Positions 9,157 to 28,914 of a stretch of DNA of 64,000 nt are shown piece by piece; the stretch's first letter is position 1; each line of letters starts with the position of its first letter. The stretch spans positions 682,001 through 746,000 of the forward strand of contig NZ_CP101988.1 in NCBI RefSeq assembly GCF_024508335.1, in the 5' to 3' direction. The notes under the pieces were generated by a model. It saw only the letters and a list, made by a program, of their open reading frames with translations. It searched no databases and was not told where the DNA came from. Source of the stretch: Cellulomonas chengniuliangii (GTDB lineage Bacteria > Actinomycetota > Actinomycetes > Actinomycetales > Cellulomonadaceae). A program made the translations under genes and the position numbers.

Positions 9157-9184
9157 CTCATATCCGCCGAAGAGCGGCCGATCA
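9157..9184 (+). promoter_or_regulatory. FliA/WhiG-type promoter P1 (CTCA-N16-GCCGATCA) for flbD-motAB-fliL
   Basis: CTCA at 9157-9160 and GCCGATCA at 9177-9184 are separated by 16 bases. The -10 matches the sigma-28 consensus GCCGATAA. The same element with identical spacing occurs upstream of five other transcription units in this window. The predicted leader to flbD GTG 9241 is about 50 bases. Confidence 0.8.
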
Positions 9185-9240
9185 GAACAGCACAGGGCCC
9201 ACGGATGGGCTCGTCGGACTGAACCAGGGACGGAACAGCT

Positions 9241-9537
9241 GTGATCGTCGTGACGCGCCTCAACGGGCACCAGTTCGGGGTGAACCCCGACCTGCTCCAA
9301 CGCATCGACAGCGCCCCTGACACGATCCTCACGCTCATCGACGGGTCCAAGTACATCGTGGAGGAGTCGATGACCGAGGTCATCGCCCTCATCCACGAGC
9401 ACCGAGCCCAACTCTTGGCACGCGCGCAGGAGATCCAGACGTCGCCCAGGGCGACAGTCGAGCTCGTCCGGGACGAGGAGTCCAAGGACGACGCCCCCCT
9501 TGCGCACCCTGTGCCCCTTCGACCCAGGAGTCGCTGA
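9241..9537 (+). CDS. flbD: FlbD/SwrD-family flagellar protein
   Basis: This 98-residue protein has the conserved N-terminal core of the small FlbD family: VTRLNGHQFGVNPDLLQRI and TLIDGSKYIVEESMTEVI. This is the Gram-positive flagellar FlbD (SwrD in Bacillus), not the Caulobacter response regulator. SwrD in Bacillus increases motor power and is found beside motor genes, which fits the ATGA overlap with motA here. The C-terminal 30 residues are charged and poorly conserved. The start is GTG 9241, downstream of a sigma-28-like promoter. It is first in the flbD-motA-motB-fliL unit. Confidence 0.9.
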   Translation: MIVVTRLNGHQFGVNPDLLQRIDSAPDTILTLIDGSKYIVEESMTEVIALIHEHRAQLLARAQEIQTSPRATVELVRDEESKDDAPLAHPVPLRPRSR

Positions 9538-10304
9538 TGGACCCCGCCGGAATCATCGGGATCGTCGTCGTCTTCGGCGCCATCTTCGGTGCGCTGCTGA
9601 TCGAGGGCGCCGACCCGATGTCCATTTTCCTTCCCGCGCCGCTCATGCTGGTGTGGATCGGCACCATCGGCGTGGGCATCGCCGGGCACACCGTCAAGGA
9701 CGTGCTCGCCTCGTACGCGGCGGTGCCGCGGGCGTTCCGCGCGAAGGCCGCCGACCCGGGCGCGATGGTCGACACCGTGGTGAACCTCGCGGACCGCGCC
9801 CGTCGCGAGGGCCTGCTGGCCCTGGAGGACGCCGCGAAGGACATCGACGACCCGTTCCTGCGCTCCGGGCTGCAGGCGGCGATCGACGGCACGGACCCAG
9901 AGGACCTGCGGATCATCCTCGAGGACAAGATCGCCACGAAGCGGACCCAGGACCGGGTGCACGCCAAGTTCTTCCAGGACATGGGCGGCTACGCGCCCAC
10001 CATCGGCATCATCGGCACGGTCATCTCGCTGGTCCACGTGCTCGAGAACCTGGCCGATCCCGCGTCGCTGGGCCACTCGATCGCGGCGGCCTTCGTCGCG
10101 ACCCTGTGGGGGATCCTCTCCGCCAACGCGGTGTGGCTGCCCATCGGCACGCGCATCCGCCGGCTCTCCGACCTGGAGTGCCTGCAGATGGAGGTCACCC
10201 TCGAGGGCCTGCTGGCGGTGCAGGCCGGCGCGAACCCGCGCCTGGTCGGCGAGCGCCTCCGCAGCCTCGTGCCCGCGTCGCCCGCCGCCAAGGCCGCGGC
10301 GTGA
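9537..10304 (+). CDS. motA: Flagellar stator protein MotA
   Basis: MotA forms the pentameric part of the stator proton channel. The 255-residue protein has two N-terminal membrane helices (about 4-22 and 31-51), a cytoplasmic region with VNLADRARREGLLALE (the conserved MotA RxxGLLALE motif), and two C-terminal helices. The pattern FFQDMGGYAPTIGIIGTVISL is typical of MotA/TolQ proteins. AGGAG at 9526-9530 precedes the ATG, which overlaps the flbD stop. The stop overlaps the GTG of motB, as expected for a co-translated stator pair. Confidence 0.96.
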   Translation: MDPAGIIGIVVVFGAIFGALLIEGADPMSIFLPAPLMLVWIGTIGVGIAGHTVKDVLASYAAVPRAFRAKAADPGAMVDTVVNLADRARREGLLALEDAAKDIDDPFLRSGLQAAIDGTDPEDLRIILEDKIATKRTQDRVHAKFFQDMGGYAPTIGIIGTVISLVHVLENLADPASLGHSIAAAFVATLWGILSANAVWLPIGTRIRRLSDLECLQMEVTLEGLLAVQAGANPRLVGERLRSLVPASPAAKAAA

Positions 10305-11203
10305 GCTCGGCGCGCGGCCGTGGCGGGCGCCGGCGCTCGTCAGGCCACGAGGAGGAGCACTCCAACCACGAGCGCTGGTTGATCAGCTACTCCGACATGA
10401 TCACCGTGCTGATGGCGCTGTTCATCGTGCTGTTCGCGATCAGCCAGGTCGACCAGCAGAAGTACGTGGCGCTGCGCGACTCCCTGGCCGCCGGCTTCAA
10501 CACGAACGCGGCGCCGTCTGTGCTCGACGGCAGCAACGGCACGCTCGACGGCGGCAGCGTGGACCCGCAGGCGGCGCCCGCGACCAGCACCGGCGGGATG
10601 GTCGACGCGGACGCAGGGCTTGGCACGCAGGGCGCCAACCCGTCGAGCGTCCCCGCGGAGACGGTCGACCCCGTGCTGCTCGAGGCGGCGCGCCGCGAGG
10701 CCGCCCACCTCGAGGGGGTCCGAGCCCAGCTCGCGGGCTTGCTGCAGGCGAACGGCCTGAGCGACGCGGTGCGGTTCCGCATCGACGAGCGAGGCCTCGT
10801 CATGGGCCTGGTCGCCGACGACGTGTTCTTCGCCGCGGCCAGCGCGGTCCTGACCCCGACCGCCCGCCAGGTGCTGGACGTGTCGGGCCCCACCCTCGTC
10901 TCGCTGGCCGAGTCCATCTCGGTCGAGGGGCACGCCAACACGATCCCGGTCTCGGGCCGGTATCCCACGAACTGGGAGCTGTCCTCGGACCGTGCGACGC
11001 AGGTGCTGCGGCACCTGGTCGAGGTCGACGGCGTCGCGCCGCAGCGCATCATGGCGGTCGGCTACGGCGACGCCCGACCGCTCGTCGACGGCCCGGGCGA
11101 GGACGCGATCGTCGCGAACCGCCGAGTCGACCTCGTCATCCTCAGCAGCGCGCCGGAAGCCGTGCGTGTGCTGGTTCCCACCCTGACCGGGACGGAGGGC
11201 TAG
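10301..11203 (+). CDS. motB: Flagellar stator protein MotB
   Basis: MotB anchors the stator to peptidoglycan and supplies the proton-carrying Asp. The 300-residue protein starts at GTG 10301 (GTGA overlap with motA). The N-terminus has a basic tail, then WLISYSDMITVLMALFIVLFA. The Asp in SYSDM is the conserved ion-binding residue of the single membrane helix. The C-terminal OmpA-like peptidoglycan-binding domain (about residues 165-285) shows SVEGHANTIPVS, SSDRATQVLRHL and IMAVGYGDARPL. An acidic/Ser/Ala linker of about 90 residues separates the two parts. Confidence 0.96.
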   Translation: MSSARGRGGRRRSSGHEEEHSNHERWLISYSDMITVLMALFIVLFAISQVDQQKYVALRDSLAAGFNTNAAPSVLDGSNGTLDGGSVDPQAAPATSTGGMVDADAGLGTQGANPSSVPAETVDPVLLEAARREAAHLEGVRAQLAGLLQANGLSDAVRFRIDERGLVMGLVADDVFFAAASAVLTPTARQVLDVSGPTLVSLAESISVEGHANTIPVSGRYPTNWELSSDRATQVLRHLVEVDGVAPQRIMAVGYGDARPLVDGPGEDAIVANRRVDLVILSSAPEAVRVLVPTLTGTEG

Positions 11204-11207
11204 ACCC

Positions 11208-11723
11208 ATGCCCATCGAGCAACGAGTCATCTCCAGCAGCAAGATCGGGGCGAAGAACGCCCAGCCCGCGGCAGGGCTCAAGCCTGCCGAGGAGCCCCCG
11301 GCGAAGGGGAAGGGCAAGCGCGTCAAGCTGCTCGTCCTCGGCGCGGTGCTCCTCGTCGTGCTGGGCGCGGCCGCCGCCTACCTGGGCGGGGTGTTCGATC
11401 GGGGGGCCGCCGCCGAGCCGTCGGCTCCGCCGCCGCCGACGCCCGGCGAGGTGCTGGCGGTCGAGCCGGTGAGCCTCAACCTGGCGGGTGGGCACTACCT
11501 GCGTATCGGGCTGGGCCTGCAGCTCACCACGGACGTCCACGAGGCGCCCGACCCGTCGAAGGCGGTGGACGTCGCGATCGCCCTGTTCTCCGGGCGCTCG
11601 ATGGAGGAGGTCTCCGACCCGGCGACCCGGGACGCGCTCAAGGCGCAGCTCGCCGAGCAGCTCGTCGAGGTCTACGAGGGCGAGGTGATGGACGTCTACC
11701 TGACCAACTTCGTGACGCAGTAG
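11208..11723 (+). CDS. fliL: Flagellar basal body-associated protein FliL
   Basis: FliL is a single-pass membrane protein that surrounds and supports the stator. The 171-residue protein has a 34-residue basic cytoplasmic tail, one membrane helix (KLLVLGAVLLVVLGAAAAYLG, about residues 37-57), a Pro/Ala linker and the extracytoplasmic FliL domain (LAVEPVSLNLAGGHYLRIGLGLQ). It ends in the family-typical YEGEVMDVYLTNFVTQ. It lies four bases after motB and ends the motor unit, before a 150-base gap carrying hairpins and the fliM promoter. Confidence 0.93.
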   Translation: MPIEQRVISSSKIGAKNAQPAAGLKPAEEPPAKGKGKRVKLLVLGAVLLVVLGAAAAYLGGVFDRGAAAEPSAPPPPTPGEVLAVEPVSLNLAGGHYLRIGLGLQLTTDVHEAPDPSKAVDVAIALFSGRSMEEVSDPATRDALKAQLAEQLVEVYEGEVMDVYLTNFVTQ

Positions 11724-11735
11724 TGCCAGCACGGC

Positions 11736-11841: not shown

Positions 11842-11869
11842 CTCATGAATGCGCGCAGTCCGCCGATGG
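11842..11869 (+). promoter_or_regulatory. FliA/WhiG-type promoter P2 (CTCA-N16-GCCGATGG) for fliM onward
   Basis: CTCA at 11842-11845 and GCCGATGG at 11862-11869, 16-base spacer. Only seven bases separate the -10 from the fliM GTG at 11877, so transcription from it would start at or next to the start codon and give a leaderless mRNA. Confidence 0.75.
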
Positions 11870-11876
11870 GTCGTGC

Positions 11877-12821
11877 GTGACAGTAGACGAGACCCTGCAC
11901 GCGCCCGCTCGCGCCGCGACGCGCCGCGCTCGACTGCAGGAGCCGGAGGCCTACGACTTCCGGCGTCCGATGACCATGGCCCGTGAGCACGCCCGGGTGC
12001 TGGAGATGGCGTTCGAGACGTTCGCCCGCCAGTGGGGCAACCAGTTGAGCGCGCGGCTGCGCGTGAGCGCCCAGGTGACGTTCGACGGCCTGGACCTGTG
12101 CTCGTACGACGAGTACGTGCGGGCTCTTCCCACCACCACAGCGATGGTGCTGTGCACGGTGGAGCAGTCCCGGCAGACGGCGGTGGTGCAGATCCCCGTG
12201 GGTGTGCTCATGGTGTGGGTCGACTACTTGCTCGGCGGCGCGGGCAAGGGCGACGAGCGGGAGGGCCGCGAGCTCACCGAGATCGAGATGGTGTTGGTGC
12301 GCGAGCTCCTGCAGCTCGCGCTCGGCGACCTCGGCTACGCGTTCGCAGGGCTGATGCCGCTCGACGTGAGTGTGCGGTCGGTGCAGTACAACCCCCAGTT
12401 CGTGCAGGCCGTGGGAGCCACGGACCCGGTGCTGAAGGCGTCGTTCACGCTGCGCTCCGGCGAGCGCGAGGACCACGCGACGCTGATGTTCCCCGCGGAC
12501 CTGCTCCTGGCGGGGCTGCTGAAGGGGGACGGCACGGACACCCGCTCCGCCGAGGAGAGCCGGGCCCTGGCCGTCGCGCTCGAGGACCTCGAGCTCGCCG
12601 TGCAGCACGTCCCCGTCGAGGTCGCCGTGCGCTTCACGCCGAAGACGGTGCGCCCCCAGGAGGTCCTGGCCTTCGCGGTGGGCGACGTCCTGCCCTTGGA
12701 ACATCCCTCGTCGCGTCCGCTGGACGTGGTCGTCGACGGGGTCGTGCTCGCCCGAGCCGCCGCCGGGAACAACGGTTCCCGGCTCGCCTGCATGGTCGTC
12801 GATGTCGAGGAGAACCTCTGA
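11877..12821 (+). CDS. fliM: Flagellar motor switch protein FliM (N-terminal CheY-binding motif not recognisable)
   Basis: FliM is the C-ring protein joining FliG to FliN and, in most bacteria, binding CheY-P. The 314-residue protein has the FliM middle domain beginning at YDFRRP (about residue 26), the switch segment VDYLLGGAGKG and MVLVRELLQLALGDL, and a C-terminal SpoA-like domain. The usual N-terminal LSQxEIDALL motif is not seen. The first 25 residues (MTVDETLHAPARAATRRARL) are basic. There is no earlier in-frame ATG, GTG or TTG, so GTG 11877 is the most upstream start. No Shine-Dalgarno is present, and the sigma-28-like promoter P2 ends seven bases before it. The stop overlaps fliN. Confidence 0.93.
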   Translation: MTVDETLHAPARAATRRARLQEPEAYDFRRPMTMAREHARVLEMAFETFARQWGNQLSARLRVSAQVTFDGLDLCSYDEYVRALPTTTAMVLCTVEQSRQTAVVQIPVGVLMVWVDYLLGGAGKGDEREGRELTEIEMVLVRELLQLALGDLGYAFAGLMPLDVSVRSVQYNPQFVQAVGATDPVLKASFTLRSGEREDHATLMFPADLLLAGLLKGDGTDTRSAEESRALAVALEDLELAVQHVPVEVAVRFTPKTVRPQEVLAFAVGDVLPLEHPSSRPLDVVVDGVVLARAAAGNNGSRLACMVVDVEENL

Positions 12822-13543
12822 TGAACCCCACCCCCCCGCTCACCGCCGGCACGCTGACGGCGGCCGCGCTCGACGCGGCGGCAGCGGTGGCCCGCCTGCT
12901 GCCCTCGACCACGCCGCTCACCGCGACGCCCGCCGAGCCCGGCGCGCTGCCCGCGCCCGACGAGGTCGCCGTGGTGGCGTCCTTCGTCGGGTCGGCGAGC
13001 GCCGACCTGGTGATCATCGCGGAGGAGGCGGTGCGCGAGGCGCTGCTCGCCGCGGCGGACGCCGGCTCGCCGGTGGCCCTGGCGGACGCTCTGCGCCCGG
13101 CGCTCGAGGCAGCCTGCGCCGAGCTCGGCGCAGGCGTGCTCGACGCTGCGACGACGGCCACCGCCGGCGAGGCCGTGGCCTCCGACGCGCACCTGTTCGC
13201 CCTGACGCACGACGGCGTCACGCGCGCCTGGTTCGCGCTGCGGATCCGCGCCGAGCCGGTGCCGGCCCGTGAGGCCGGCATCCCGACGCAGCGCGCAGGG
13301 CTGCACGTCCTCTACGACGTGGAGATGACGCTCACCGCCGAGCTGGGCCGCACCCGCCTGCCGGTGCGGCAGGTGCTCGAGCTGACGCCCGGCGCCGTGC
13401 TCGAGCTCGACCGGACGGCGGGGAGCCCGGCGGACGTCATGGTCAACGGCCGGCTGATCGCCCGCGGCGAGGTCGTCGTGGTCGACGAGGAGTACGGCAT
13501 CCGCATCACGCAGATCGTGGCGGGATCGGACGGCATCGCCTGA
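12821..13543 (+). CDS. fliN: Flagellar motor switch protein FliN, long form with extra N-terminal domain
   Basis: This 240-residue protein ends in a clear FliN/SpoA domain (about residues 160-236): YDVEMTLTAELGRTRLPVRQ, LTPGAVLELDRTAG and VMVNGRLIARGEVVVVDEEYG, the standard FliN signature. FliN builds the base of the C-ring. E. coli FliN is 137 residues. Here about 150 extra N-terminal residues look like a degenerate CheC/CheX-type domain, reminiscent of FliY from Bacillus, but without a visible ExxN phosphatase pair. The ATG overlaps the fliM stop; its stop overlaps fliO. Confidence 0.92.
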   Translation: MNPTPPLTAGTLTAAALDAAAAVARLLPSTTPLTATPAEPGALPAPDEVAVVASFVGSASADLVIIAEEAVREALLAAADAGSPVALADALRPALEAACAELGAGVLDAATTATAGEAVASDAHLFALTHDGVTRAWFALRIRAEPVPAREAGIPTQRAGLHVLYDVEMTLTAELGRTRLPVRQVLELTPGAVLELDRTAGSPADVMVNGRLIARGEVVVVDEEYGIRITQIVAGSDGIA

Positions 13544-14166
13544 TGGACGGGCCCGTCCTGGTGCTGCGCGTGGCGTTGGCCCTGGCATGCGTGGTGGGGC
13601 TGATCTGGCTCGCGAGCCGCAAGCTGGGCGGGGTGCAGGGCCGACGCAAGCTGACGGCCCCGGAGATGCAGGTCGTCTCCCGCCAGGTCTTCGGTCGGCA
13701 CTCGGGCGTGGCCGTGCTCGCGGTGGGCAACCGCCGCCTGCTCCTCGGGTATGGGGAGCAGCAGGTCACGATGCTCACCGAGCTCGCCCCGGTGGCCGAC
13801 ACCGCGCCGCACCCGGCCGGGCTGTCGCTGGCCGCCGGCGGCTCGGGCTCGACGCCTGGCACGGCGGGCGGCGGCTCGCTGCCCGGCTCGCGTCGTGCGA
13901 GCGCCGCGAGCGCGGCGGCCCCGCTGCTGGCCGCTGTGCCGGCCGCGCGGCCCGAGCTCGACATCGACGCCGTGCTTGCCCAGGCGCGCCTCGACGCGGT
14001 CCGCGAGCCGGCGGCGGGGGACGCCGAGCCCTCCGCCGTGCCGTCCCCGGCGCTGGACGGGCCGCACGGAACGGCCAAGGCGGGCCCACTCGACGGGTCG
14101 ATCCTGTCGCCCAGCACGTGGCGGCGCGCCATCAACGTGCTGCAGGACCGCACGGTGCGCCGATGA
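13543..14166 (+). CDS. fliO: Flagellar biosynthetic protein FliO
   Basis: This 207-residue protein has one N-terminal membrane helix (VLVLRVALALACVVGLIWLAS), then a small conserved beta domain with MQVVSRQVFGRHSGVAVLAVGNRRLLLGYGE. That matches the FliO pattern in which a short cytoplasmic domain follows the helix. FliO helps assemble the FliP pore of the export gate. The C-terminal two thirds are Ala/Gly/Pro/Ser-rich and not conserved. FliO is variable across phyla; position between fliN and fliP with 1- and 4-base overlaps supports the call. Confidence 0.87.
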   Translation: MDGPVLVLRVALALACVVGLIWLASRKLGGVQGRRKLTAPEMQVVSRQVFGRHSGVAVLAVGNRRLLLGYGEQQVTMLTELAPVADTAPHPAGLSLAAGGSGSTPGTAGGGSLPGSRRASAASAAAPLLAAVPAARPELDIDAVLAQARLDAVREPAAGDAEPSAVPSPALDGPHGTAKAGPLDGSILSPSTWRRAINVLQDRTVRR

Positions 14167-15005
14167 CCTCGACGGCGACGACCCCACGACGCGGCGTGGG
14201 GCGGCTCCTCGCCCTCGCCGCGCTGCTCTCCGGGCTCGTCGTCGTGCTGATGCTCGTCGGCGGCGGCCCCGCGCACGCTGCGCCGCTGGACCCCGTGGAC
14301 CCGACGGCGCCGACCGCGCCGGGGGCCGGCGGCGACACCATCTCGGTGTCCGTCAACGGCGTGAACGGCACCCCGAGCAGCTCGCTCGTGGTGCTGCTCG
14401 GCATCACGTTGCTGTCCGTGGCGCCGTCCCTGATGCTGATGGTGACCAGCTTCACCAAGATCCTCGTGGTGCTGTCGCTGACCCGGAACGCGCTGGGCCT
14501 GCAGGGCGTCCCGCCGAACCAGGTGCTCGCCGGGCTGGCGCTGTTCCTCAGCCTGTTCGTGATGGCGCCGGTGATCGGCGACGTCAACGAGATCGGCGTG
14601 CAGCCCTACCTGGCCGGCGAGCTGACGTTCTCGCAGGCGGTCGACGTCGGCTCGGGGCCGTTGCGGGAGTTCATGCTCGCGCACACCCGGGAGGCCGACC
14701 TGGCGCTGGTGACGCGCGCGGCGGACCAGCCCAACCCCGAGGACCCGGCGTCGGTGCCGATGCTCACGCTGATCCCGGCGTTCATGCTCTCCGAGCTGCG
14801 GGCCGCGTTCATCATCGGCTTCGTCATCTTCGTGCCGTTCCTGGTGATCGACCTGGTGGTCTCCGCGGCGCTGATGTCGATGGGCATGATGATGCTGCCG
14901 CCGATCATGGTGTCGCTGCCGTTCAAGCTCCTGCTCTTCGTGCTCGTGGACGGGTGGGGACTGATCATCACCGCCCTGATCGGCTCCTACGCGGGCGGTG
15001 GTTGA
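14163..15005 (+). CDS. fliP: Flagellar export-gate protein FliP
   Basis: FliP forms the core pore of the type III export gate. The 280-residue protein begins with a cleavable signal peptide (hydrophobic run ALAALLSGLVVVLMLVGGG, cleavage near PAHAAP), typical of FliP. It then has SFTKILVVLSLTRNALGLQ, the family hallmark with PNQVLAGLALFLSLFVMAP, and the C-terminal SMGMMMLPPIMVSLPFKLLL. ATG 14163 overlaps the fliO stop. Two bases separate its stop from the fliQ start. Confidence 0.96.
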   Translation: MTSTATTPRRGVGRLLALAALLSGLVVVLMLVGGGPAHAAPLDPVDPTAPTAPGAGGDTISVSVNGVNGTPSSSLVVLLGITLLSVAPSLMLMVTSFTKILVVLSLTRNALGLQGVPPNQVLAGLALFLSLFVMAPVIGDVNEIGVQPYLAGELTFSQAVDVGSGPLREFMLAHTREADLALVTRAADQPNPEDPASVPMLTLIPAFMLSELRAAFIIGFVIFVPFLVIDLVVSAALMSMGMMMLPPIMVSLPFKLLLFVLVDGWGLIITALIGSYAGGG

Positions 15006-15007
15006 CG

Positions 15008-15280
15008 GTGGACACGAATGCCGTCCTCGACATCGGCCTGGACGCCCTGATCCTCGCGGCGAAGCTGGCCGCCCCCGTGCTGATCACGGCGCTGGTGGTG
15101 GGCTTCGTGGTGTCGCTGCTGCAGTCGGTGACCCAGATCCAGGAGGTCACGCTCAGCTTCGTGCCGAAGGCCGTGGCCGCCGCCGTGGCGCTGCTCGTGT
15201 CCGGGCACTGGATGATCTCCGAGCTCGTCACCTTCACCCACGAGCTGTTCGACCGCATCCCCCAGCTCGTGGGGGGCTGA
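15008..15280 (+). CDS. fliQ: Flagellar export-gate protein FliQ
   Basis: This 90-residue protein with two membrane helices matches FliQ length (about 89). Recognisable segments are LKLAAPVLITALVVGFVVSL-like helix one and the diagnostic SLLQSVTQIQEVTLSFVPK loop, followed by helix two. FliQ wraps the FliP-FliR pore of the export gate. The start is taken as GTG 15008, giving MDTNAVLDIG; an in-frame TTG at 15002 would add two residues and overlap fliP. No strong ribosome site is visible, which suggests translational coupling. Confidence 0.95.
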   Translation: MDTNAVLDIGLDALILAAKLAAPVLITALVVGFVVSLLQSVTQIQEVTLSFVPKAVAAAVALLVSGHWMISELVTFTHELFDRIPQLVGG

Positions 15281-15285
15281 GGCGC

Positions 15286-16059
15286 GTGGGCCCGCTGAGC
15301 GTCACGTTGCCGTTGGCGACGGTCGAGCTGGTGATGCTCGCCGGCGTGCGCGTCGCGGCGTTCCTGGTCATCGCGCCGCCGTTCGCGCACACCGCCGTGC
15401 CCGGCCGGATCAAGGCGATGCTGGCGGTGGGGCTGGCGCTGGCGATGAGCCCGCGCCTGCAGCCGGTCGAGGGCGGGTCCTTGAGCACCGCGGGATTCGT
15501 GGGCGCGTTGGCGATGCAGGTGCTGATCGGCGGGGCACTGGGCTTCCTGGTGGCGCTCGTCTTCGCGGCAGTGCAGGGCGCGGGCACGTTCATCGACCTG
15601 TTCGGCGGCTTCCAGATGGCGGCGGCCTTCGACCCGATGAGCATGACCAGCGGCGCCCAGTTCGCCCGCCTGTACCAGTACACGGCGGTGGTGCTGCTGT
15701 TCGCGTCGGACGGCCACCAGATGCTGATCGCGGGCCTGGCGCGCACCTTCGACGCCCTGCCGATCGGCGCGAACCTGGACATGGCCCAGCTCGGCAGCAC
15801 GCTCGTCGACGGCGCGTCGCAGATGTTCGTGGCGGCGCTGCAGATCGCGGGGCCGCTGATCGTGGTGCTGTTCCTCACCGACGTGGGCCTGGGCCTGTTG
15901 ACCCGGGTGTCCCCGGCGATGAACGCGTTCGCGTTGGGCTTCCCGCTGAAGATCTTGATGACCCTCACGTTCGTCACGTTCGCGTACCTCGCGATGCCCG
16001 GCATCATCGACGGGCTGCTGGGCTCCGCGGTCGAGGCACTGCTGGGGGTGGTCCGATGA
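15286..16059 (+). CDS. fliR: Flagellar export-gate protein FliR
   Basis: This 257-residue protein with six predicted membrane helices matches FliR. Typical segments are LAGVRVAAFLVIAPPFAHTAVPGRIKA at the N-terminus, FGGFQMAAAFDPMSMTSG in the middle and GLGLLTRVSPAMNAFALGFP (family RxxPxxNvfxxGfP) near the C-terminus. FliR completes the FliPQR gate. The start is GTG 15286, five bases after the fliQ stop; the stop overlaps the flhB ATG by 4 bases. Confidence 0.94.
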   Translation: MGPLSVTLPLATVELVMLAGVRVAAFLVIAPPFAHTAVPGRIKAMLAVGLALAMSPRLQPVEGGSLSTAGFVGALAMQVLIGGALGFLVALVFAAVQGAGTFIDLFGGFQMAAAFDPMSMTSGAQFARLYQYTAVVLLFASDGHQMLIAGLARTFDALPIGANLDMAQLGSTLVDGASQMFVAALQIAGPLIVVLFLTDVGLGLLTRVSPAMNAFALGFPLKILMTLTFVTFAYLAMPGIIDGLLGSAVEALLGVVR

Positions 16060-17195: not shown

Positions 17196-17202
17196 GGCTC
17201 CC

Positions 17203-17238
17203 GCCCTCCGCGCCCTCCGCGCCCTCCGCGCCCTCCGC
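17203..17238 (+). repeat. 9-bp tandem repeat (4 perfect copies plus a partial) between flhB and flhA
   Basis: The unit GCCCTCCGC is repeated perfectly four times (17203-17238), with a partial fifth starting at 17239. It sits eight bases after the flhB stop in the 142-base flhB-flhA gap. The unit length is nine, and the run contains no stop on the + strand. No promoter was recognised in this gap. Confidence 0.9.
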
Positions 17239-17337
17239 GCCCTGCGATCCGGCCCGCGATCCCGCCCGCGCCCCTGCGCACCACACGCTTGACGCACCTG
17301 CTGAGTCCGCAGCGCCCGCTGCCAGGAAGGCCCACCC

Positions 17338-20593: not shown

Positions 20594-20890
20594 ATGCTGG
20601 TCCTGAGTCGTCGCGTCGGTGAGCGTCTCGTGATCGGTGACAACATCGTCGTCACGGTGATCGAGGTCCGCAGCGACGGGGTCCGGCTGGGCATCGACGC
20701 CCCGCGGGACGTCCGCGTCCACCGGGCGGAGATCCTCGAGGCCGTCACCGCCGCCAACGTCGAGGCCAGCGCCGCGGTGGACGATGACGCCGCGGTCGCC
20801 GCGCTGCGCGACCTCGTGCACCGCCCGCGCCCGTCGAACGCGCCCAGCGAGGACACGGTCGGTCCCGGCCCGGACGGCTCCCAGGACTGA
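20594..20890 (+). CDS. csrA: Carbon storage regulator / translational repressor CsrA
   Basis: CsrA is an RNA-binding dimer that represses translation of GGA-containing leaders. In Gram-positive flagellar systems it represses flagellin and is antagonised by FliW. Residues 1-57 are a complete CsrA: MLVLSRRVGERLVIGDNIVV, then VRLGIDAPRDVRVHRAEI with the conserved RVHR segment that contacts RNA. The protein is 98 residues, about 30-35 longer than typical, with an acidic Ala-rich tail. No ribosome site precedes ATG 20594; a TAGGCT hexamer at 20582-20587 could make a near-leaderless transcript. No fliW is present in this window. Confidence 0.95.
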   Translation: MLVLSRRVGERLVIGDNIVVTVIEVRSDGVRLGIDAPRDVRVHRAEILEAVTAANVEASAAVDDDAAVAALRDLVHRPRPSNAPSEDTVGPGPDGSQD

Positions 20891-20972: not shown

Positions 20973-21000
20973 CTCAAGTCGGCCTGATCCCGGCCGATCA
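20973..21000 (+). promoter_or_regulatory. FliA/WhiG-type promoter P3 (CTCA-N16-GCCGATCA) for cheA-cheW
   Basis: CTCA at 20973-20976 and GCCGATCA at 20993-21000, 16-base spacer, 50 bases before the cheA start. Same element and spacing as P1. Confidence 0.8.
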
Positions 21001-21050: not shown

Positions 21051-23519
21051 GTGGAGGACATGGACGACATCGTTCGCGAGTTCCTCGTGGAGAGCCATGA
21101 GAACCTCGACCAACTCGACCAGGACCTCGTCGCCCTGGAGAGCTCGCCGGGCTCGCGCGAGCTGCTCGGCAGCGTCTTCCGCACCGTCCACACGATCAAG
21201 GGCACCAGCGGCTTCCTCGCGTTCAGCCAGCTCGAACGGGTGACCCACGCCGGGGAGAACCTGCTCGTGGAGCTCCGCGACGGCCGCCGGGCGATGGATG
21301 GGCCGACCACCGATCTGCTGCTCCGCCTGGTGGACACGGTGCGGGCCATCCTCGCCGCGATCGACGCCACGGGCGGCGAGGGCGCAGTCCCGGTCGACGA
21401 CGTCATCGACGCGATCACCATCTTGCAGCGGGGCGGGTCCGCCGCTGCCGCGCCGGTCGCCGACGTGCCCGTCGCCGACGCGCCCGCTGACGAGGCCACA
21501 GTCGCCGAGGCCGCCGCCGCTGAGCCCCCCGCCACCGAGCCGCCCGTGAGCGAGGCCCCGGACCAGGACCTCGCGCCGGTCGACGCCTCGGCGACGCCAG
21601 CCGACGTGTCAGCGGTCCCGCCGGCCGCCGCGCCTGCCACACCCGCCGTCGAGCCTGCGGAGCCGTCGGGCGTCCCCACCGGCGCCGAAGACCCCGCCAC
21701 GGACGCCGCCCCCGGTGTGCCGCACCAGAGAGGAGCGGTCGCCGTGCCGCCCGTCGCCACCCCCAGTGCGCCCCCCGCTCCCGCAGCGCCCGTCACTCCC
21801 GCGGACGACTCGACCGCCTCGCGCGGCGTCGCCGACTCCTCGATCCGGGTCGACGTGGACCTGCTCGACGCCCTGATGCGCCAGGTCGGCGAGCTGGTGC
21901 TCGCCCGCAACCAGATCACCCGCCTCGCCAGCAGTGGCGAGGACGTCGAGTTGTCGCGCACCGCGCAGCGGCTCAACCTGATCGCGGGCGAGCTGCAGGA
22001 GGGGGTCATGAAGACCCGCATGCAGCCCATCGAGCATGTCTGGTCCAAGATGCCCCGCGTCGTGCGGGACCTGGCGGCCCACTGCGACCGCGAGGTCCAG
22101 CTCGAGATGACCGGCGGGGACACCGAGCTCGACCGCAGCCTCCTCGAGGCGGTCAAGGACCCGCTCACCCACCTGGTCCGCAACGCCGTCGACCACGGGA
22201 TCGAGTCCCCGGCCGAGCGCGCAGCCGCCGGGAAGCGGCCCAAGGGCACGCTCTCGCTGCGGGCCTACCACGCGGGCGGCCAGGTGGTCGTCGAGATCGC
22301 CGACGACGGCCGCGGCATCGACCCGGAGAAGATCGCCGCGAAGGCGATCGAGCGAGGCCTGCGGACCGCTGAGCAGATCGCCGCGATGAGCGCCGGCGAG
22401 ATCATCAACCTGGTGTTCCACGCCGGGTTCTCGACCGCCGAGGCGGTCACCAACGTCTCAGGCCGCGGTGTGGGCATGGACGTCGTGCGCACCAAGATCG
22501 AGGCCATCGGCGGCGCGGTGGACGTCGAGTCGACCGTCGGCCTGGGCACCGTGTGGCGCCTGGGCATCCCCCTGACGCTCGCGATCATGCCCGCCCTGAC
22601 GGTGGAGTGCGCTGGCGACCTGTTCGCGGTGCCGCAGGTCAGCCTGCTCGAGCTCGTGGCGCTCGACACCCAGCGCTCGCGGGCCGGCATCGAGTACGTG
22701 CACGCCGCGCCGGTGTACCGGCTGCGGGGCGAGCTCCTGCCGCTCGTGTCCCTCGCCGGGGTGCTCGAGGTCGGCGCCGGCCCGGAGGCCGGCGTCGAGC
22801 AGCAGGGCGTGATCGCTGTGGTCCAGGCCGACCAGCAGCGGTTCGGCCTGCTCGTGGACCGCGTCCTCAACACCGAGGAGATCGTGGTCAAGCCGCTGTC
22901 CGCACGGCTGAAGTCCATCGGCGTGTACGCGGGCGCCACGGTGCTGGGCGACGGGCACGTCGCGCTCATCCTGGACGTCCAGTCGATCGCGCGGCGGGCG
23001 CTGACCTCCGAGGGCGAGCTCGCGCGCGCGGCCCGTGATGTCGAGGCCGAGGTCGAGGTCGTCACCCACGAGCAGGTGCTCGTGGTCGGGATCGGCCATG
23101 GGCGCCGGGTCGCGATGCCGCTGGCGTCGGTCGCACGCCTCGAGCTGGTGCCCGCCGACCAAGTCGAGCTAGTGGGCGGCCGCGAGGTCATCCAGTACCG
23201 CGGGACGATCCTGCCCCTCGCCCGGCTCGACCGGGTGCTGCGGGTGCCCGGGGCGGGCGGCGCGGACGCCGCCGAGCTGCTGCTCGTCGTGTACACCCAT
23301 GACGGTCGCAGCGTCGGGCTGGTCGTGGACGAGATCATCGACATCGTCGACGACGACGCCGGCCGGCGCTCGGACATCGAGGACACGGGCCTGCTGGGCT
23401 CGACCGTGCTTGGCGATCGGGTCACCGAGCTGCTGGACGTGCGCGGCGCGGTGCTGGCCGCCGACCCGTCCTTCTACGACGCCGATCCGAGCCGCATCCT
23501 CGTGGGAGCCCACCGATGA
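21051..23519 (+). CDS. cheA: Chemotaxis histidine kinase CheA with two C-terminal CheW-like domains
   Basis: CheA phosphorylates CheY and CheB in response to chemoreceptors. Domains in the 822-residue protein are: Hpt with phospho-acceptor His47 in TVHTIKGTSGF; an Ala/Pro/Glu linker (about 130-262) where a CheY-binding P2 domain would normally lie; a dimerisation helix pair (VDLLDALMRQVGELVLARNQ); an ATPase domain with HLVRNAVDHGIES, DDGRGIDP and GRGVGMDVV; a CheW-like P5 (about 505-640); and a second CheW-like domain (about 672-810, ending VTELLDVRGAVLAAD). The start is GTG 21051 with AGGAGG at 21041-21046 (4-base spacing); ATG 21060 is an alternative. The stop overlaps cheW. Confidence 0.95.
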   Translation: MEDMDDIVREFLVESHENLDQLDQDLVALESSPGSRELLGSVFRTVHTIKGTSGFLAFSQLERVTHAGENLLVELRDGRRAMDGPTTDLLLRLVDTVRAILAAIDATGGEGAVPVDDVIDAITILQRGGSAAAAPVADVPVADAPADEATVAEAAAAEPPATEPPVSEAPDQDLAPVDASATPADVSAVPPAAAPATPAVEPAEPSGVPTGAEDPATDAAPGVPHQRGAVAVPPVATPSAPPAPAAPVTPADDSTASRGVADSSIRVDVDLLDALMRQVGELVLARNQITRLASSGEDVELSRTAQRLNLIAGELQEGVMKTRMQPIEHVWSKMPRVVRDLAAHCDREVQLEMTGGDTELDRSLLEAVKDPLTHLVRNAVDHGIESPAERAAAGKRPKGTLSLRAYHAGGQVVVEIADDGRGIDPEKIAAKAIERGLRTAEQIAAMSAGEIINLVFHAGFSTAEAVTNVSGRGVGMDVVRTKIEAIGGAVDVESTVGLGTVWRLGIPLTLAIMPALTVECAGDLFAVPQVSLLELVALDTQRSRAGIEYVHAAPVYRLRGELLPLVSLAGVLEVGAGPEAGVEQQGVIAVVQADQQRFGLLVDRVLNTEEIVVKPLSARLKSIGVYAGATVLGDGHVALILDVQSIARRALTSEGELARAARDVEAEVEVVTHEQVLVVGIGHGRRVAMPLASVARLELVPADQVELVGGREVIQYRGTILPLARLDRVLRVPGAGGADAAELLLVVYTHDGRSVGLVVDEIIDIVDDDAGRRSDIEDTGLLGSTVLGDRVTELLDVRGAVLAADPSFYDADPSRILVGAHR

Positions 23520-23932
23520 GCCAGTTCGTGACGTTCACTCTGGGCGGCAGCCTGTACGGCGTCGCCGTCACCCGGGTGCAGGAGGCCCTGCGGGCGCACA
23601 CCCGCACGCGGGTGCCCTTGGCGCCCGTGGGCGTGGCCGGCCTGGTCAACCTGCGCGGCCAGGTCGTCCTCACGGTCGACCTCCGCGCCCGGCTCGGCCT
23701 GGAGCCGCTCGCCGAGGGCGCCGAGCCGATGATGGTCGTGGTGCAGGTCGCGGGGGAGCCCGTGAGCCTGCTCGTCGACGAGATCGGCGACGTGGTCGAC
23801 GTGGGCCCCGAGGCGTTCGAGCCCCCGCCGGACACCCTCGACGTCCACCTGCGGTCCGTGATCCTCGGCGCCTACAAGCTCGACCACGATCTGCTCCTGG
23901 TGCTGGACGTCGACGCGGCCGCCGCGGCCTGA
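23516..23932 (+). CDS. cheW: Chemotaxis coupling protein CheW
   Basis: This 138-residue single CheW domain matches the family in length and pattern: FTLGGSLYGVAVTRVQEAL, VAGLVNLRGQVVLTVDLRARLGL and VSLLVDEIGDVVDV. The conserved Arg in NLRGQ is the receptor/CheA contact region. CheW bridges CheA and MCPs in receptor arrays. ATG overlaps the cheA stop by 4 bases. It closes the cheA-cheW unit; the next gene has its own promoter. Confidence 0.96.
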   Translation: MSQFVTFTLGGSLYGVAVTRVQEALRAHTRTRVPLAPVGVAGLVNLRGQVVLTVDLRARLGLEPLAEGAEPMMVVVQVAGEPVSLLVDEIGDVVDVGPEAFEPPPDTLDVHLRSVILGAYKLDHDLLLVLDVDAAAAA

Positions 23933-24048: not shown

Positions 24049-24076
24049 CTCACCGGTGCCCTCGCGATGCCGATGG
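24049..24076 (+). promoter_or_regulatory. FliA/WhiG-type promoter P4 (CTCA-N16-GCCGATGG) for mcp1
   Basis: CTCA at 24049-24052 and GCCGATGG at 24069-24076, 16-base spacer. It decides the start of the following gene: an upstream in-frame GTG at 24008 would precede the promoter, so ATG 24113 is the better start. Confidence 0.75.
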
Positions 24077-24112: not shown

Positions 24113-25975
24113 ATGCGCGTCAAGAGGGCCGGCTTCCGCAAGGCCGCCGCCACGGGGATCGACGGGACGCGGGCCTCAGCGGAGGGCGCCGAGCCCGCAA
24201 TGGCGTCCACCGAGCCCGCCGAGGCAGCCATCGAGCCCGACGGGACTGCCATCACCGACCCCGCCGCAGAGGCGGCAGACGAGCCCGCTGAGCTTGTGCC
24301 CGCTGAGCTCGAGCCCGCTGAGCTCGAGCCGGAGGCCCCCGGTGGCGCCGAACCCGCCACGGAGCCGCCCACGGAGGCCCCCGCCGCGCGGGTCGGCTCC
24401 TGGTTCGCCGCGCGGTCGGTGCGCACCAAGATCCTCAGCGCGATCCTGCTGCTCGCCATCGTGGCGCTGGCCGCCGGCGGCTACGCGGTCGTCGCGATGC
24501 GCTCGATCGCCACGGAGACCCAGGAGCTGGCGCGCCTGCAGGAGGAGATGGTCTTCAAGCGCAGCCAGGTCGAGCAGGGCCAGCTGACCGCGCGCGTGAT
24601 CGCCGCCGAGGTCGCAGCCTTCGACGACGACGTCATGACCGAGGAGTGGCTGGCGAAGCAGGCCGCGAACGACACTGCCGTGAACGAGGCGATCGTCGCG
24701 TACGAGAAGGCCTTCGACAGCGGAGAGGCGTGGGAGACGTTCACCTCGACCTACGAGAAGTGGGTCACGCTGCGCGACAGGGTGCTGATCCCCACGGCGC
24801 TGCAGGACGACCGGGTGTACTACTCGAAGCTCGTGGAGAAGTCGAGCCAGCCGTTGGTCGAGACCTACAGCGCGGCGCTTGGCCGGGTGGCCGACGAGAC
24901 CAACACGTACTTCTACGCGGTGGCCGAGCGGGCCGACTCCAAGGCGCAGAACGCCATGCTGATCCTGGGCGCCTCGCTCGTCTCGGCGCTGGTCCTGGTG
25001 GTGGCCCTCGGGCTGGTGATCGCCCGCTCGATCCGCGGCTCGGTCCAGGAAGTGCAGCACGCGCTCGAGGCGATGGGCGACGGCGACTTCACCGTCGCCG
25101 CCACTCAGCGCTCCGAGGACGAGCTGGGCCAGATGGCGAAGGCCCTGACCCGGGCGCAGGTGTCCGTGCGCGCGACGCTCGAGGGGGTCAGCGGCACCGC
25201 GGACGACGTCACGAGCGCGGCGCAGGAGATGGCCGCCGCCGCGGCGCGGGTGGCCGCCGGCTCGCACGAGACGTCGTCGCAGGCGGGTGTCGTCGCAGCC
25301 GCCGCAGAGCAGGTCAGCCGCAATGTGCAGGCCGTCGCGGCCGGCGCCGAGCAGTTGGGCGCCTCGATCCGCGAGATCGCGCAGAACGCGAACGAGGCCG
25401 CCGAGGTCGCCGCCGAGGGCGTCACGCACGCCCGGGCGGCTGCCGAGACGGTCGACGCCCTCGGGGCGAGCTCCGCGGAGATCGGGGCGGTCGTCAAGGC
25501 GATCACGGCCATCGCCCGGCAGACCAACCTGCTGGCGCTCAACGCGACCATCGAGGCGGCCCGGGCCGGCGAGGCCGGCAAGGGGTTCGCCGTCGTCGCG
25601 GGCGAGGTCAAGGACCTCGCGCAAGAGTCGGCCCGAGCCGCCGACGACATCGCGGCCCGCGTGCAGGCCAACCAGGAGCACACCACCTCGGCGGTCGCGG
25701 CCATCGGGGAGATCACCTCGGTGATCTCCCGCATCAGCGACTTCCAGCTCACCATCGCCTCGGCGGTCGAGGAGCAGACCGCCACGACCGGCGAGATGTC
25801 GCGGGGCGTGACCGAGGCGGCGACGGGATCTGGCGAGATCGCCGAGCGCATCACCGCCGTGGCGGAGGAGGCTGCCGCCACCTCAGACGTCATGGCGCGG
25901 ATGGAGGGCTCGGTCGAGCTGCTGGCGATGAACTCGGCGGACCTCCGGGCCCGTGTGGCGGCGTTCACCTACTGA
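24113..25975 (+). CDS. Methyl-accepting chemotaxis protein with long cytoplasmic N-terminal extension
   Basis: This 620-residue transmembrane chemoreceptor has ATG 24113 with CGGAG just upstream. Residues 1-106 are an unusual Ala/Glu/Pro-rich extension with repeated [10 protein letters not shown]-like runs. TM1 lies at about 107-129 ([19 protein letters not shown]), followed by a 4-helix-bundle-type sensor domain (about 130-285) and TM2 near 285-305. HAMP and the signalling domain come next, with the conserved hairpin tip in [21 protein letters not shown] and [15 protein letters not shown]. It ends in ARVAAFTY, almost the same as the second MCP here. The ligand cannot be told from sequence. 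Confidence 0.95.
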
Positions 25976-26041: not shown

Positions 26042-26069
26042 CTCACATGCCCCGGTCGACAGCCGATCG
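26042..26069 (+). promoter_or_regulatory. FliA/WhiG-type promoter P5 (CTCA-N16-GCCGATCG) for the binding protein-mcp2 pair
   Basis: CTCA at 26042-26045 and GCCGATCG at 26062-26069, 16-base spacer, 51 bases before ATG 26121. Confidence 0.75.
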
Positions 26070-26120: not shown

Positions 26121-27239
26121 ATGAGGCGTCGGACACGACGAGGTGTGATCGAGGCCTCCGCAGGGATGGTGGCCGCAGTGCTGGCCGCCTCCACGCTGAC
26201 GGGGTGCGGCGTCGCGGGCGATGCGCCGGACAGGCCGCTGGTCGGGGTCGCCATGCCCACCACGACGTCCCAGCGCTGGATCGCGGATGGGGACAACGTC
26301 ACCGCGCAGCTCGAGTCCCTCGGCTACGACGTGGACCTGCGGTTCGCCGAGGACGACGTGCCCACGCAGGTCGCTCAGCTCGAGGAGATGGTCGCGGCGG
26401 GGGCCGACGCCCTGGTGATCGGGTCGATCGACGGCGTCGCGCTCAAGGACGTGCTGGCGCAGGCCCGTGGCGCGGGCATCCCCGTGGTCGCCTACGACCG
26501 CTTGATCCGCGAGTCGCCCGACATCGACTACTACGCCACGTTCGACAACGCGCGGGTGGGCGTCCTCCAGGCGACGAGCCTGCTGCAGGGCCTGGGCGTG
26601 CTCGACGCGGGCGGGCAGCCCACGGGCGACCCCGGGCCGTTCGCGGTCGAGCTGTTCGCCGGCTCCCCGGACGACAACAACGCCACCGTCTTCTACGAGG
26701 GCGCGATGCAGGTGCTGCAGCCCTACCTCGACTCCGGCGTGCTGACCGTCGCCTCGGGGGAGACGGACTTCGCCTCGATCGCCACCGACGCGTGGAGCGC
26801 CGACATCGCGGCGGCACGCATGCAGGAACTGCTGCCGCTGTACACGGGCAAGGCTCGGCTCGACGGCGTGCTGTCCCCGTTCGACGGGATCTCCCGGGCG
26901 GTGCTCGGCGCCGTGCAGGGCGTTGGCTACGGCACGGGCGGGCTCCCGCTGCCCGTGGTGACGGGCCAGGACGCGGAGCTGGACTCCGCGCGGTCCATCG
27001 GGGCGGGCGTGCAGCACTCGACCATCTACAAGGACACCCGGCAGCTCGCAGAGGTGGCCGTGTCCATGGTCCGCGCCCTGCTGGAGGGCATCGAGCCGGA
27101 GGCCAACGACATCACGACGTACGACAACGGCGTGATGGTCGTCCCGTCGTACCTGCTGGCGCCACAGCTCGTGACGAAGGAGAACTACCGCGCGGTCCTC
27201 GTGGACAGCGGCTACTACACCGCTGAGGAGCTGAGCTGA
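26121..27239 (+). CDS. Sugar-binding lipoprotein (periplasmic binding protein family) paired with an MCP
   Basis: This 372-residue lipoprotein has a lipobox LTGC (Cys about residue 29) after a hydrophobic stretch. The mature part is a type I periplasmic-binding-protein fold of the ChvE/XylF/multiple-sugar type: [40 protein letters not shown] and [14 protein letters not shown] 26121 follows CGAGGGAG and lies downstream of promoter P5. No permease or ATPase is adjacent. Instead the stop overlaps the ATG of an MCP, so the likely role is ligand sensing for chemotaxis rather than uptake. That role is inferred from context; the exact sugar is unknown. Confidence 0.88.
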
Positions 27240-28867
27240 TGGCCGCCGAACCCACCGTTGCCGGCCGGGTGCGCCGCCTGCGCGCCTCCTGGTTCTGGGA
27301 CCGCCCCATCGCCCTGAAGATCACGGCCTCGCTGCTCGTCCTGGGCGCGACCTTCGCCCTCGTGGGCGGCACGGGCGCCGTCGCGCTGTGGCGGGCCGGG
27401 CAGAACCTCGAGGAGATGTCCGGCCTCACCGGGCGCCTCCAGTCGTCGATGTCCGAGCTCCGCACCGCGCAGACGCGCAGCAACCTGCTCGTGCACCGCG
27501 CCGCCGAGGCCACCGACCCGGACACGCTGGCCCAGCTGCTGACGTCGTCGGCCTGGAACGACCGCGTGGTCGACGAGCAGATCGCGCTCATCTCCGAGTA
27601 CCCGCAGTCCGAGACCCGCCAGTGGGCGGACTTCATCCAGCGGTGGGGGGCGTGGGTGGCCTACCGCGACTCGACCCTGATGCCGCTGGTGCAGGCCGGT
27701 GACGTGACCGGGCTCCAGGCGGCCCTGGGCGCCGACGTCGCCGCCGACCCGGACTGGGCCGGCAGGGCGCTGGCGCTGGCGCAGGGCCAGGTGGACGCCC
27801 AGGTCGACGACATCCTGGCCGCGAGCCAGGCTGAGGTCGATCGGACGATCCTCGGCCTGCTGATCGCCTTCGTGGTGGGCAGCAGCCTCTCCGGCACGCT
27901 CGCCGTTTTGGTGACCCGCCGCATCACCGGGGCGGTGCGCACCGTTCAGGGGGCGCTCGAGGCGATGGCGGAACGGGACCTCACCGTCGCGGCCGACGTG
28001 CCGTGGCGCGACGAGACCGGCCGGATGGCCGAGGCGCTCGCGACCGCCCAGGAGTCCTTGCGCACGACCCTCGCGGGCGTGGCGTCGGCGGCCGGCACGG
28101 TCGAGGGCACCGCGGCGCAGCTCAACGCGTCCAACGGCGACGTGGTCGCCGGCTCGCAGCAGACCAGCGCCCAGGCAGGCGTGGTCGCGGCCGCCGCGGA
28201 GCAGGTCTCCCGCAACGTCCAGGCTGTGGCCGCCGGCGCCGAGGAGATGGGCGCGAGCATCCGCGAGATCGCGCAGAACGCCTCCGAGGCGGCGAAGGTC
28301 GCCAACCAGGCGACCCAGGCGGCTGCCTCGACGAACGAGCAGGTCGCTCGCCTCGGGGCCTCGTCGCAGAAGATCGGCGACGTCGTCAGGGTCATCACCT
28401 CGATCGCGGAGCAGACCAACCTGCTCGCTCTGAACGCGACGATCGAGGCGGCGCGCGCGGGGGAGGCGGGCAAGGGCTTCGCCGTCGTCGCGGGGGAGGT
28501 CAAGGAGCTCGCGCGGGAGACCGCCACCGCCACCGAGGACATCGCCCGGCGGGTCGACGCGATCCAGGGCGAGACGTCCGCGGCCGTCGTCGCCATCGCG
28601 GAGATCGCGCAGATCATCGCGACGATCAACGACTACCAGCTCACCATCGCCAGCGCGGTCGAGGAGCAGACGGCGACGACCAACGAGATGTCCCGGTCCG
28701 TCTCGGAGGCGGCGACCGGCGCAGGGGAGATCGCCGCCAACATCACCGGTGTCGCGGACGCCGCGGCACGGTCCGTGGCAGTCCTCGACGGGGTGTCCTC
28801 GCAAGTCACCGACTTGGCTGAGCTGTCCACCGACCTGAACGCCCGAGTGGCGCTGTTCACGTACTGA
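27239..28867 (+). CDS. Methyl-accepting chemotaxis protein, co-operonic with a sugar-binding lipoprotein
   Basis: This 542-residue chemoreceptor has a short cytoplasmic start, TM1 at about 24-47 ([23 protein letters not shown]), an extracytoplasmic helical sensor domain (about 48-198) with [21 protein letters not shown], and TM2 at about 200-222. HAMP follows ([17 protein letters not shown]). The signalling domain has the hairpin tip [19 protein letters not shown] and [15 protein letters not shown]. The C-terminus ARVALFTY mirrors mcp1. The ATG overlaps the binding-protein stop (ATGA), strongly suggesting that the lipoprotein presents ligand to this receptor. Confidence 0.95.
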
Positions 28868-28886
28868 CCGTTGGGGCGCTCTGCCG

Positions 28887-28914
28887 CTCAGGAACTGGCC
28901 GCTGCGGCCGATAA
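28887..28914 (+). promoter_or_regulatory. FliA/WhiG-type promoter P6 (CTCA-N16-GCCGATAA) for cheB-cheR-cheY-cheX
   Basis: CTCA at 28887-28890 and GCCGATAA at 28907-28914, 16-base spacer. The -10 is a perfect match to the textbook sigma-28 -10. It lies 42 bases before the cheB ATG. Confidence 0.85.

Follow-up and report, generated by a model that had tools for sequence, protein, structure and literature searches.

In the textbook account of flagellar assembly, σ28 (FliA) waits until FlgM has been exported through the finished hook-basal body, and the enteric σ28 regulon excludes early genes. Here, we analyze an element of the form CTCA-N16-GCCGAT that occurs six times among the motility genes of Cellulomonas chengniuliangii, in a 64,000-nucleotide stretch with 73% G+C (bases 682001–746000 of a single-contig 3.57 Mb genome). 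This stretch is called the window below, and positions are those of the window unless marked as genome positions. Judged from the DNA sequence, the six elements are very probably FliA-type promoters read by FliA. In Actinoplanes missouriensis, one motility island with a CTCA −35 element and a GCCGA −10 element of a FliA-family factor was reportedly described by Jang et al. in 2016; its −10 element is reported to have been GCCGAA at spacings of 15–17 bases, while here it is GCCGAT at 16. A search of the open-licence literature for Actinoplanes together with GCCGAA gave no match.

Several other systems resemble this one in some respects. The E. coli σ28 consensus is TAAAGTTT-n11-GCCGATAA, and enteric promoters are alike in register, in the importance of the −35 T and A at the aer promoter, and in GCCGAT (PMC2859248). 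Unlike in enterics, there is a C before and inside the −35 element, no AA is conserved after GCCGAT, early genes are included, and no FlgM was found. The WhiG promoters of Streptomyces and Rubrobacter, TAAA with GCCGATAA, are read by a factor of the same sigma family and have the same −10, but differ in their TAAA −35 and in their targets, which are sporulation or type IV pili (PMC8325347). In Actinoplanes, 29 flagellar-cluster genes and nine methyl-accepting chemotaxis protein (mcp) genes rise at least 100-fold from day 1 to day 3 (PMC11960193), and three factors, FliA1, FliA2, and FliA3, are present (PMC13293333), as opposed to one FliA plus WhiG here. The control of hag by CsrA and FliW in Bacillus subtilis is a parallel in that csrA and fliW are both flagellar cluster genes (PMC7652899). 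As at hag, the flagellin leader here contains a hairpin, and another GGA coincides with the Shine-Dalgarno site; unlike in B. subtilis, hairpins are also found ahead of flgB and flbD-mot, and csrA ends a probably leaderless operon. The promoter type is known, and it is the layout that appears to be new: early genes under the element, a probably leaderless fliM, and flgB and flbD hairpins beside that of fliC. No account of early genes under the element, of leaderless fliM, or of flgB and flbD hairpins was found in the open-licence literature, and we know of no leaderless fliM or CsrA hairpins from Actinoplanes.

Six elements with a fixed spacing

The sequence-only reading of this stretch had proposed six sites of fixed spacing across the motility genes, and all six were confirmed as exact matches on the forward strand, starting at 9157, 11842, 20973, 24049, 26042, and 28887. 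They were the sole exact matches in the window when both strands were scanned. The number expected was 0.20, and none of 100 dinucleotide shuffles of the window reached six (the largest count was one). When the spacing was varied from N6 to N26, N16 gave six matches in the window, and the remaining 20 spacings gave two in sum. Measured against the site density in the rest of the genome, the Poisson probability of at least six sites in 64 kb was 2.4e-6. In the whole genome, there were 26 exact matches (18 forward, 8 reverse) compared to nine for a reversed-pattern control; all 21 spacings together gave 211 matches, or ca. nine per spacing other than N16, and the Poisson probability of at least 26 was 5e-6. 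The motif is GC-rich, as is the window, and the nine or so matches per spacing show what chance alone supplies in this genome. As an explanation of the six sites chance is nevertheless negligible, given the shuffles and the conservation at orthologous places, which refutes it.

To describe this conservation, 40 stretches around fliA from 22 relatives were collected, genes were placed by tblastn, and the regions upstream of projected starts were scanned from −150 to +30; passing upstream windows came from 21 genomes, that of C. chengniuliangii included. Exact CTCA-N16-NCCGAT was present in 64 of 92 upstream windows of fliC (10/21), flgB (14/21), flbD (11/16), fliM (15/17), cheA (9/10), and cheB (5/7). 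In the same windows, 20 other spacings produced six matches in sum. Control windows, taken from operon-internal genes and genes lacking a site, contained no exact match (0/80): none lay directly ahead of fliE or flgE (19 genomes each), csrA (17, own included), fliD (21), or flgK (4). With relaxed −35 and −10 elements, the counts rose to 15/21 for fliC, 18/21 for flgB, 15/16 for flbD, 17/17 for fliM, 9/10 for cheA, and 6/7 for cheB.

A second collection, comprising the best 80 of 430 named loci around fliA (some share genomes with the 21-genome set), gave a similarly sharp peak, with CTCA and GCCGAT found 92 times at N16 and 0–10 times at each other spacing. The N16 element stood ahead of fliC in 39 of 73 named loci and ahead of flgB in 41 of 53; on the flgN side, [CG]T[CT]A-N16-NCCGAT was present in 48 of 79 loci, while no element at N16 pointed toward fliA itself (0/79). 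Among these 80, the closest FliA relatives were those of Cellulomonas timonensis (94%) and of a strain labelled C. cellasea (93%). Further afield, the site ends 58–59 bases before the open reading frame start at fliC in Actinomadura (L193) and in an Aeromicrobium metagenome-assembled genome (L191), and Kineococcus (L190) has two sites on the flgK side. The stretch fetched for Paractinoplanes (L194) contained neither an N16 site nor a flagellin match and is uninformative, and a Nocardioides metagenome-assembled genome (L192) had no flagellar gene match. The CTCA and GCCGAA form, that ascribed to Actinoplanes, occurred five times at N16 and nine times at N17 over the 80 loci, with no clear peak, and was set aside.

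The −10 element had been said to match the σ28 consensus octamer. This is correct for GCCGAT, which is present at all six window sites, and not for the octamer GCCGATAA, which is found only at 28887; GCCGAT is followed by CA at 9157 and 20973, by GG at 11842 and 24049, and by CG at 26042, so AA follows it in one of the six. Likewise, the −35 element had been described as CTCA rather than TAAA. CTCA is present in six of six, the −35 proper being TCAN in each and full TAAA being absent. The contrast is one of bases and not of register, which CTCA-N16 shares with TAAA-N15: the consensus reads TAAA-N15-GCCGAT, and CTCA-N16 lays TCAN on TAAA, with T1 and A3 common to both. The aer promoter, which has an activity of 223 units, lost ca. 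nine-fold when T1 or A3 was changed, with 23 or 26 units left (PMC2859248, Table 1).

Base preferences were tallied on 86 relaxed sites, for which the search pattern fixed the −35 T and A and the CGA[TA] of the −10; at the free −10 positions, base 2 was C in 92% and base 1 was G in 60%. A repeat tally that left the −35 unfixed used windows with exactly one NCCGAT (n = 69). The four bases at N16 were CTCA in 56 of these (by column, C 67, T 66, C 58, and A 64). In control genes, CTCA stood at 0 of 14 NCCGAT and CTTA at 3 of 14. Fetched stretches from relatives at 57–60% G+C often have CTAA or CTTA instead, and the share of a third −35 base other than C falls with G+C (rho −0.47; 13 of 86 sites, which are not independent). 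Because the register is shared with TAAA, and because lower-GC relatives show CTAA or CTTA, the best view of CTCA-N16 is that of a GC-rich variant of the established σ28 element. FliA-RNA polymerase would read TCA in the TAAA register and then GCCGAT 15 bases on.

The distance from the −10 to the start codon is 38–58 bases at five window sites, the fliM site (11842) excepted. This leaves room at five of six for a different arrangement, in which an unknown activator would bind the element as its operator, with the true promoters, of the σA type, lying further downstream. An operator is very improbable, because the fixed N16 spacing and the in-register match to the σ28 consensus speak against it, and because the fliM start follows the −10 by 8–10 bases in 17 of 17 genomes, with no space for an intervening promoter.

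FliA and WhiG as candidate readers of the element

A σ28-family gene, without which the elements could hardly be assigned to FliA, is present beside the cluster: fliA occupies genome positions 676926–677813, where it immediately precedes fliC in the flagellar cluster, 4–5 kb to the left of the window. The profile TIGR02479 (FliA_WhiG) has seven matches in the genome, of which one exceeds the cut-off of 189.6 bits. The match in fliA (genome 676959–677600) scores 154.7 bits, under this cut-off; the fliA product has sigma-70 regions 2, 3, and 4 above Pfam cut-offs, and a profile of 17 family FliA sequences matches the solved FliA 6pmi with an E value of 1e-41. The sole match over the cut-off, at 267.7 bits, is a WhiG orthologue at genome 2235046–2235726, whose closest solved entry is 6pfj (E 5e-92). 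We take 6pfj to be Streptomyces WhiG; the table used labels it RNA polymerase sigma factor. The WhiG orthologue (L027) adjoins a tyrosine recombinase gene.

The two factors were compared across 61 sampled family genomes, which are not phylogenetically independent: 26 have fliA (E < 1e-50; in G059, it has an internal stop), nine have WhiG only, and 26 have neither. The median number of exact sites per Mb was 6.0 in fliA-containing genomes, 3.9 in WhiG-only genomes, and 3.0 in genomes with neither. Site density was higher with fliA than without it (p 2e-7), and the reversed-pattern control was not raised. Four genomes, G018, G003, G028, and G015, have fliA and no WhiG among the matches listed, and have kept their flagellar sites; in G018, the element is present in five of five genes, while the sites of G015 are mostly of the CTAA form. 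Since fliA-containing genomes with no listed WhiG keep these sites, the comparison suggests that FliA alone suffices for them.

The WhiG orthologue as the main reader of the elements, or as a second one beside FliA, is improbable, though less so than the operator. In its favor, WhiG has a promoter specificity in common with flagellar sigma factors (PMC8325347), it is the only FliA_WhiG match over the cut-off in the genome, and both-factor genomes have about twice the exact-site density of FliA-only genomes. The genome also offers WhiG no site of its own of the form TAAA-N13-17-SCCGATA (0 matches), which led us to reject a separate TAAA regulon for WhiG. Against a role for WhiG at the flagellar units, WhiG-only genomes, with G036 (a cut fliA piece) removed, do not differ from genomes with neither factor (p 0.32), and in the four genomes listed above, flagellar units are still preceded by the element or by its CTAA form. 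WhiG may read part of the non-flagellar sites, or FliA-only genomes may have drifted to TCCGAT or GGCGAT.

Several observations weigh against the assignment of the elements to FliA or blur it. Exact CTCA-N16-NCCGAT is missing from 28 of the 92 upstream windows expected to contain it; the fliC element is at N15 in four of 73 named loci; and for fliD, the relaxed element appears in just three of 21 genomes, all of lower G+C (G017, G015, and G012). Genomes with FliA and no WhiG are not above the group with neither (p 0.32, 5 vs 26) and have half the site density of both-factor genomes (p 0.002). A change at −35 base 5 of aer also lowers activity, from 223 to 50 (PMC2859248), and this base is not fixed in the elements here. 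The recognition helices, QSR..LR in FliA and ESR..MH in WhiG, do not covary cleanly with the −35, and a clean covariation was rejected, as the R persists in relatives with CTAA. Finally, chance would supply about nine of the 26 exact genome matches, roughly a third, and among the 20 that lie outside the window, 16 are intragenic or face no clear gene.

The proposal that motor, switch/export, and chemotaxis genes form one FliA-type regulon is supported by the presence of fliA, by the conserved orthologous sites, and by site density. The sequences of the sites, their spacing, their conservation, and their gene context are observed; from them, we infer that FliA binds the elements and that transcription starts there.

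Units under the element and a probable single tier

Within the window, all units headed by the elements lie on the forward strand. Promoter 1 (9157–9182) heads the motor unit, though not motA directly: the first gene is flbD (9241–9537, GTG start, PF06289), followed by motA (9537–10304, PF01618), motB (10301–11203, PF13677 and PF00691), and fliL (11208–11723, PF03748). Promoter 2 (11842–11867) heads fliM (11877–12821, PF02154) and the export genes through csrA. The export gate run (13543–20530) contains fliO, fliQ, fliR, flhB, and flhA according to Pfam scans, and a Pfam-less gene of 385 residues between flhA and csrA (19373–20530); neither fliN nor fliP was identified in this run by Pfam scans of the window. 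The last gene ahead of promoter 3 is csrA (20594–20890, PF02599). Promoter 3 (20973–20998) heads cheA (21051–23519) and cheW (23516–23932). Promoter 4 (24049–24074) lies ahead of an mcp gene (24113–25975, PF00015; ATG at 24113, start inferred), promoter 5 (26042–26067) lies ahead of a periplasmic binding protein gene (26121–27239, PF13407, start inferred) and a further mcp gene (27239–28867, PF00015), and promoter 6 (28887–28912) heads cheB (28957–30120, PF01339), cheR, and further chemotaxis genes.

The left end of the window is occupied by fliE to flgE (85–9094, forward strand), which had been described as having no visible copy of the element in the window. This is true inside the window and not overall, and reflects where the window is cut: these genes are the downstream part of the flgB operon, which is preceded by the near-copy CTCA-N16-TCCGAT at genome 681228, 773 bases to the left of the first base of the window. 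Because their operon starts at the element-bearing flgB, fliE to flgE belong to the regulon. A search for the element at flagellin genes was rewarded with a one-mismatch copy, CTCA-N16-CCCGAT, ahead of fliC (genome 677863), and the flgK-flgL-fliW side has the near-copy GTCA-N16-TCCGAT (genome 676635), with a first gene taken as flgN by its position. Among the mcp genes, for which a test of enrichment had also been suggested, an element or near-copy covers five of six. Four have one of their own: the sites at window 24049 and genome 148634 are exact, and the other two genes have GTCGAT near-copies, in one case overlapping the earliest start codon that the frame allows. The fifth is covered through its operon, the unit headed by site 26042. 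No convincing copy was found for the mcp gene at genome 1375088 (one of six).

Elsewhere in the genome there are 20 exact matches, three of them in promoter position ahead of recognized genes: on the reverse strand, the mcp gene with the exact site at genome 148634 and an EAL-HDOD gene beside fliW (genome 673236), and on the forward strand, a GGDEF gene (genome 2869001). The EAL-HDOD gene (genome 671961–673217, reverse strand; L035:9961–11217) has CTCA-N16-NCCGAT ahead of it in 20 of 60 named loci, which ties a cyclic di-GMP-type gene to the flagellar regulon. One more exact match (genome 636999, forward strand) lies 47 bases before a Pfam-less 138-residue frame (L004:1574–1990), which has a hydrophobic segment close to its start.

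Taken together, units with an element or near-copy are flgN-flgK-flgL-fliW, fliC, flgB to flgE, flbD-motAB-fliL, fliM to csrA, cheAW, cheBR, and five of six mcp genes, and the examined units that lack one are fliA, fliD-fliS, and a single mcp gene. An enrichment at flgM had been suggested as a check, and no flgM was found to place the element against: the best hit of a profile search of the genome had an E value of 0.55, and no FlgM was above cut-off in 25 fliA-containing genomes. Given that rod/hook, switch/export, motor, filament, and chemotaxis units all bear the element and that FlgM was not found, the regulon looks single-tier, and rod, hook, switch, and export genes more probably than not stand in the same tier as filament and chemotaxis genes. 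A single tier is made less secure by sub-cut-off FlgM matches in four of the 25 genomes (best E 0.007), as a diverged FlgM could escape Pfam. A Pfam-less 120-residue frame between fliS and flgB (L035:18753–19112) is FliT-like by position, or a candidate FliA partner.

Both flgB and fliM bear the element, and both units may have further promoters. A classical hierarchy, in which these two units have a FliA-independent promoter or are reached by read-through and the element gives only a late boost, is unlikely but deserves more weight than any rival considered above. Enteric promoters of mixed class 2/3 are a parallel for such a boost, and the lack of an N16 element at fliA in all 79 named loci implies that another promoter acts upstream in the cascade. 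On the other side, the fliM start codon stands at the expected FliA start position, and no FlgM was found for a checkpoint. Two published accounts agree with the latter, one placing later actinobacterial classes without FlgM (PMC10746217), and the other, from 2008, doing so for Kineococcus and the flagellated Actinobacteria then sequenced and considering a novel mechanism of FliA control possible (PMC2587704). Should early genes require FliA, the checkpoint of enterics could not operate here in the way that is known.

The fliM start and hairpins in leaders

A fliM match was present in 17 genomes, that of C. chengniuliangii included. In every one, the GTG that follows the −10 at 8–10 bases (nine in C. 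chengniuliangii) is in frame, and no stop lies between this GTG and the conserved part. Seven of the 17 have no alternative in-frame upstream start for fliM; in the other ten, alternative starts are at least nine bases upstream of the GTG, which puts them ahead of the −10 or no more than one base from it. A GGA-like match precedes the GTG in one of 17 (G018), where it overlaps the promoter. The usual start distance of σ28 would put the 5′ end of fliM mRNA at or beside the GTG. Because the GTG sits where a FliA start is expected, fliM mRNA is probably leaderless (window 11867–11880). The GGDEF gene has the same layout, with a GTG nine bases after the −10 (L020:1526–1538), and would give a second probably leaderless FliA mRNA.

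The csrA gene ends the operon before the cheA promoter, and fliW is on the flgK side. Leaders were inspected for CsrA-type sites. A GGA hairpin of at least four pairs was present in 19 of 19 fliC, 14 of 16 flbD, and 19 of 19 flgB leaders, with 2.0, 3.0, and 4.6 in shuffles, respectively. There was no hairpin excess in cheA leaders (2/10, 1.5 expected) or cheB leaders (0/5, 0.6 expected). In C. chengniuliangii, the hairpins are at window 9195–9212 for flbD (forward strand; arms GGGCCC and GGGCTC around ACGGAT), L035:15898–15914 for fliC, and L035:19263–19300 for flgB, and those of flbD and fliC have CCCACGGATGGG in common. The ANGGAN hexaloop is the target bound by the CsrA homologue RsmE (PMC7652899).

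This first count picked hairpins by their stem, which favors pairing; a repeat took the first ANGGAN whatever its stem, from 85 fliC, 17 flbD, and 70 flgB leaders of both locus collections (some genomes twice), with 47, 16, and 48 distinct 20-mers, respectively. The arms flanking ANGGAN paired better than arms re-dealt among relatives, with the observed pairing reached in 0 of 2000 trials for fliC and 2 of 2000 for flbD, and paired changes between arms were seen (GCCC/GGGC, GGCC/GGCC, TGCC/GGCG, and GTTC/GGAC). Six of the 47 fliC 20-mers were unpaired over four bases, showing that some wrong picks were taken in. The flgB arms do not pair in the hexaloop frame (0.365 vs 0.362) and do so only with a seven-base loop (0.880 vs 0.817; 1 of 500 trials), so this leader fits the ANGGAN hexaloop only loosely. 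Two further points count against functional hairpins: the arm-exchange controls ignore relatedness, and the leaders taken as a whole show no better folding than their shuffled versions (z −0.83, −0.62, and −0.15).

CsrA control of flagellin has already been proposed for Kineococcus (PMC2587704). In the mechanism that we put forward tentatively, from sequence, order would be set on the mRNAs: CsrA, countered by FliW, would set timing at the hairpins in the fliC, flbD, and flgB leaders, and the leaderless fliM/export/csrA mRNA would escape CsrA. The rod-hook (flgB), motor (flbD-mot), and filament (fliC) mRNAs would then wait until FliW frees them.

Hook-basal-body and export genes bear the σ28 element, and FlgM was not found, so the checkpoint of the textbook may not exist here. 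The promoter map, the probable leaderless fliM, and the paired hairpins make the control of FliA directly testable. It may be the mRNAs, and not a regulator cascade, that determine the order of assembly, and it is conceivable, if short of an even chance, that flagellated Cellulomonas and their kin do without transcriptional assembly tiers and have one FlgM-less FliA regulon with an order imposed on its mRNAs.

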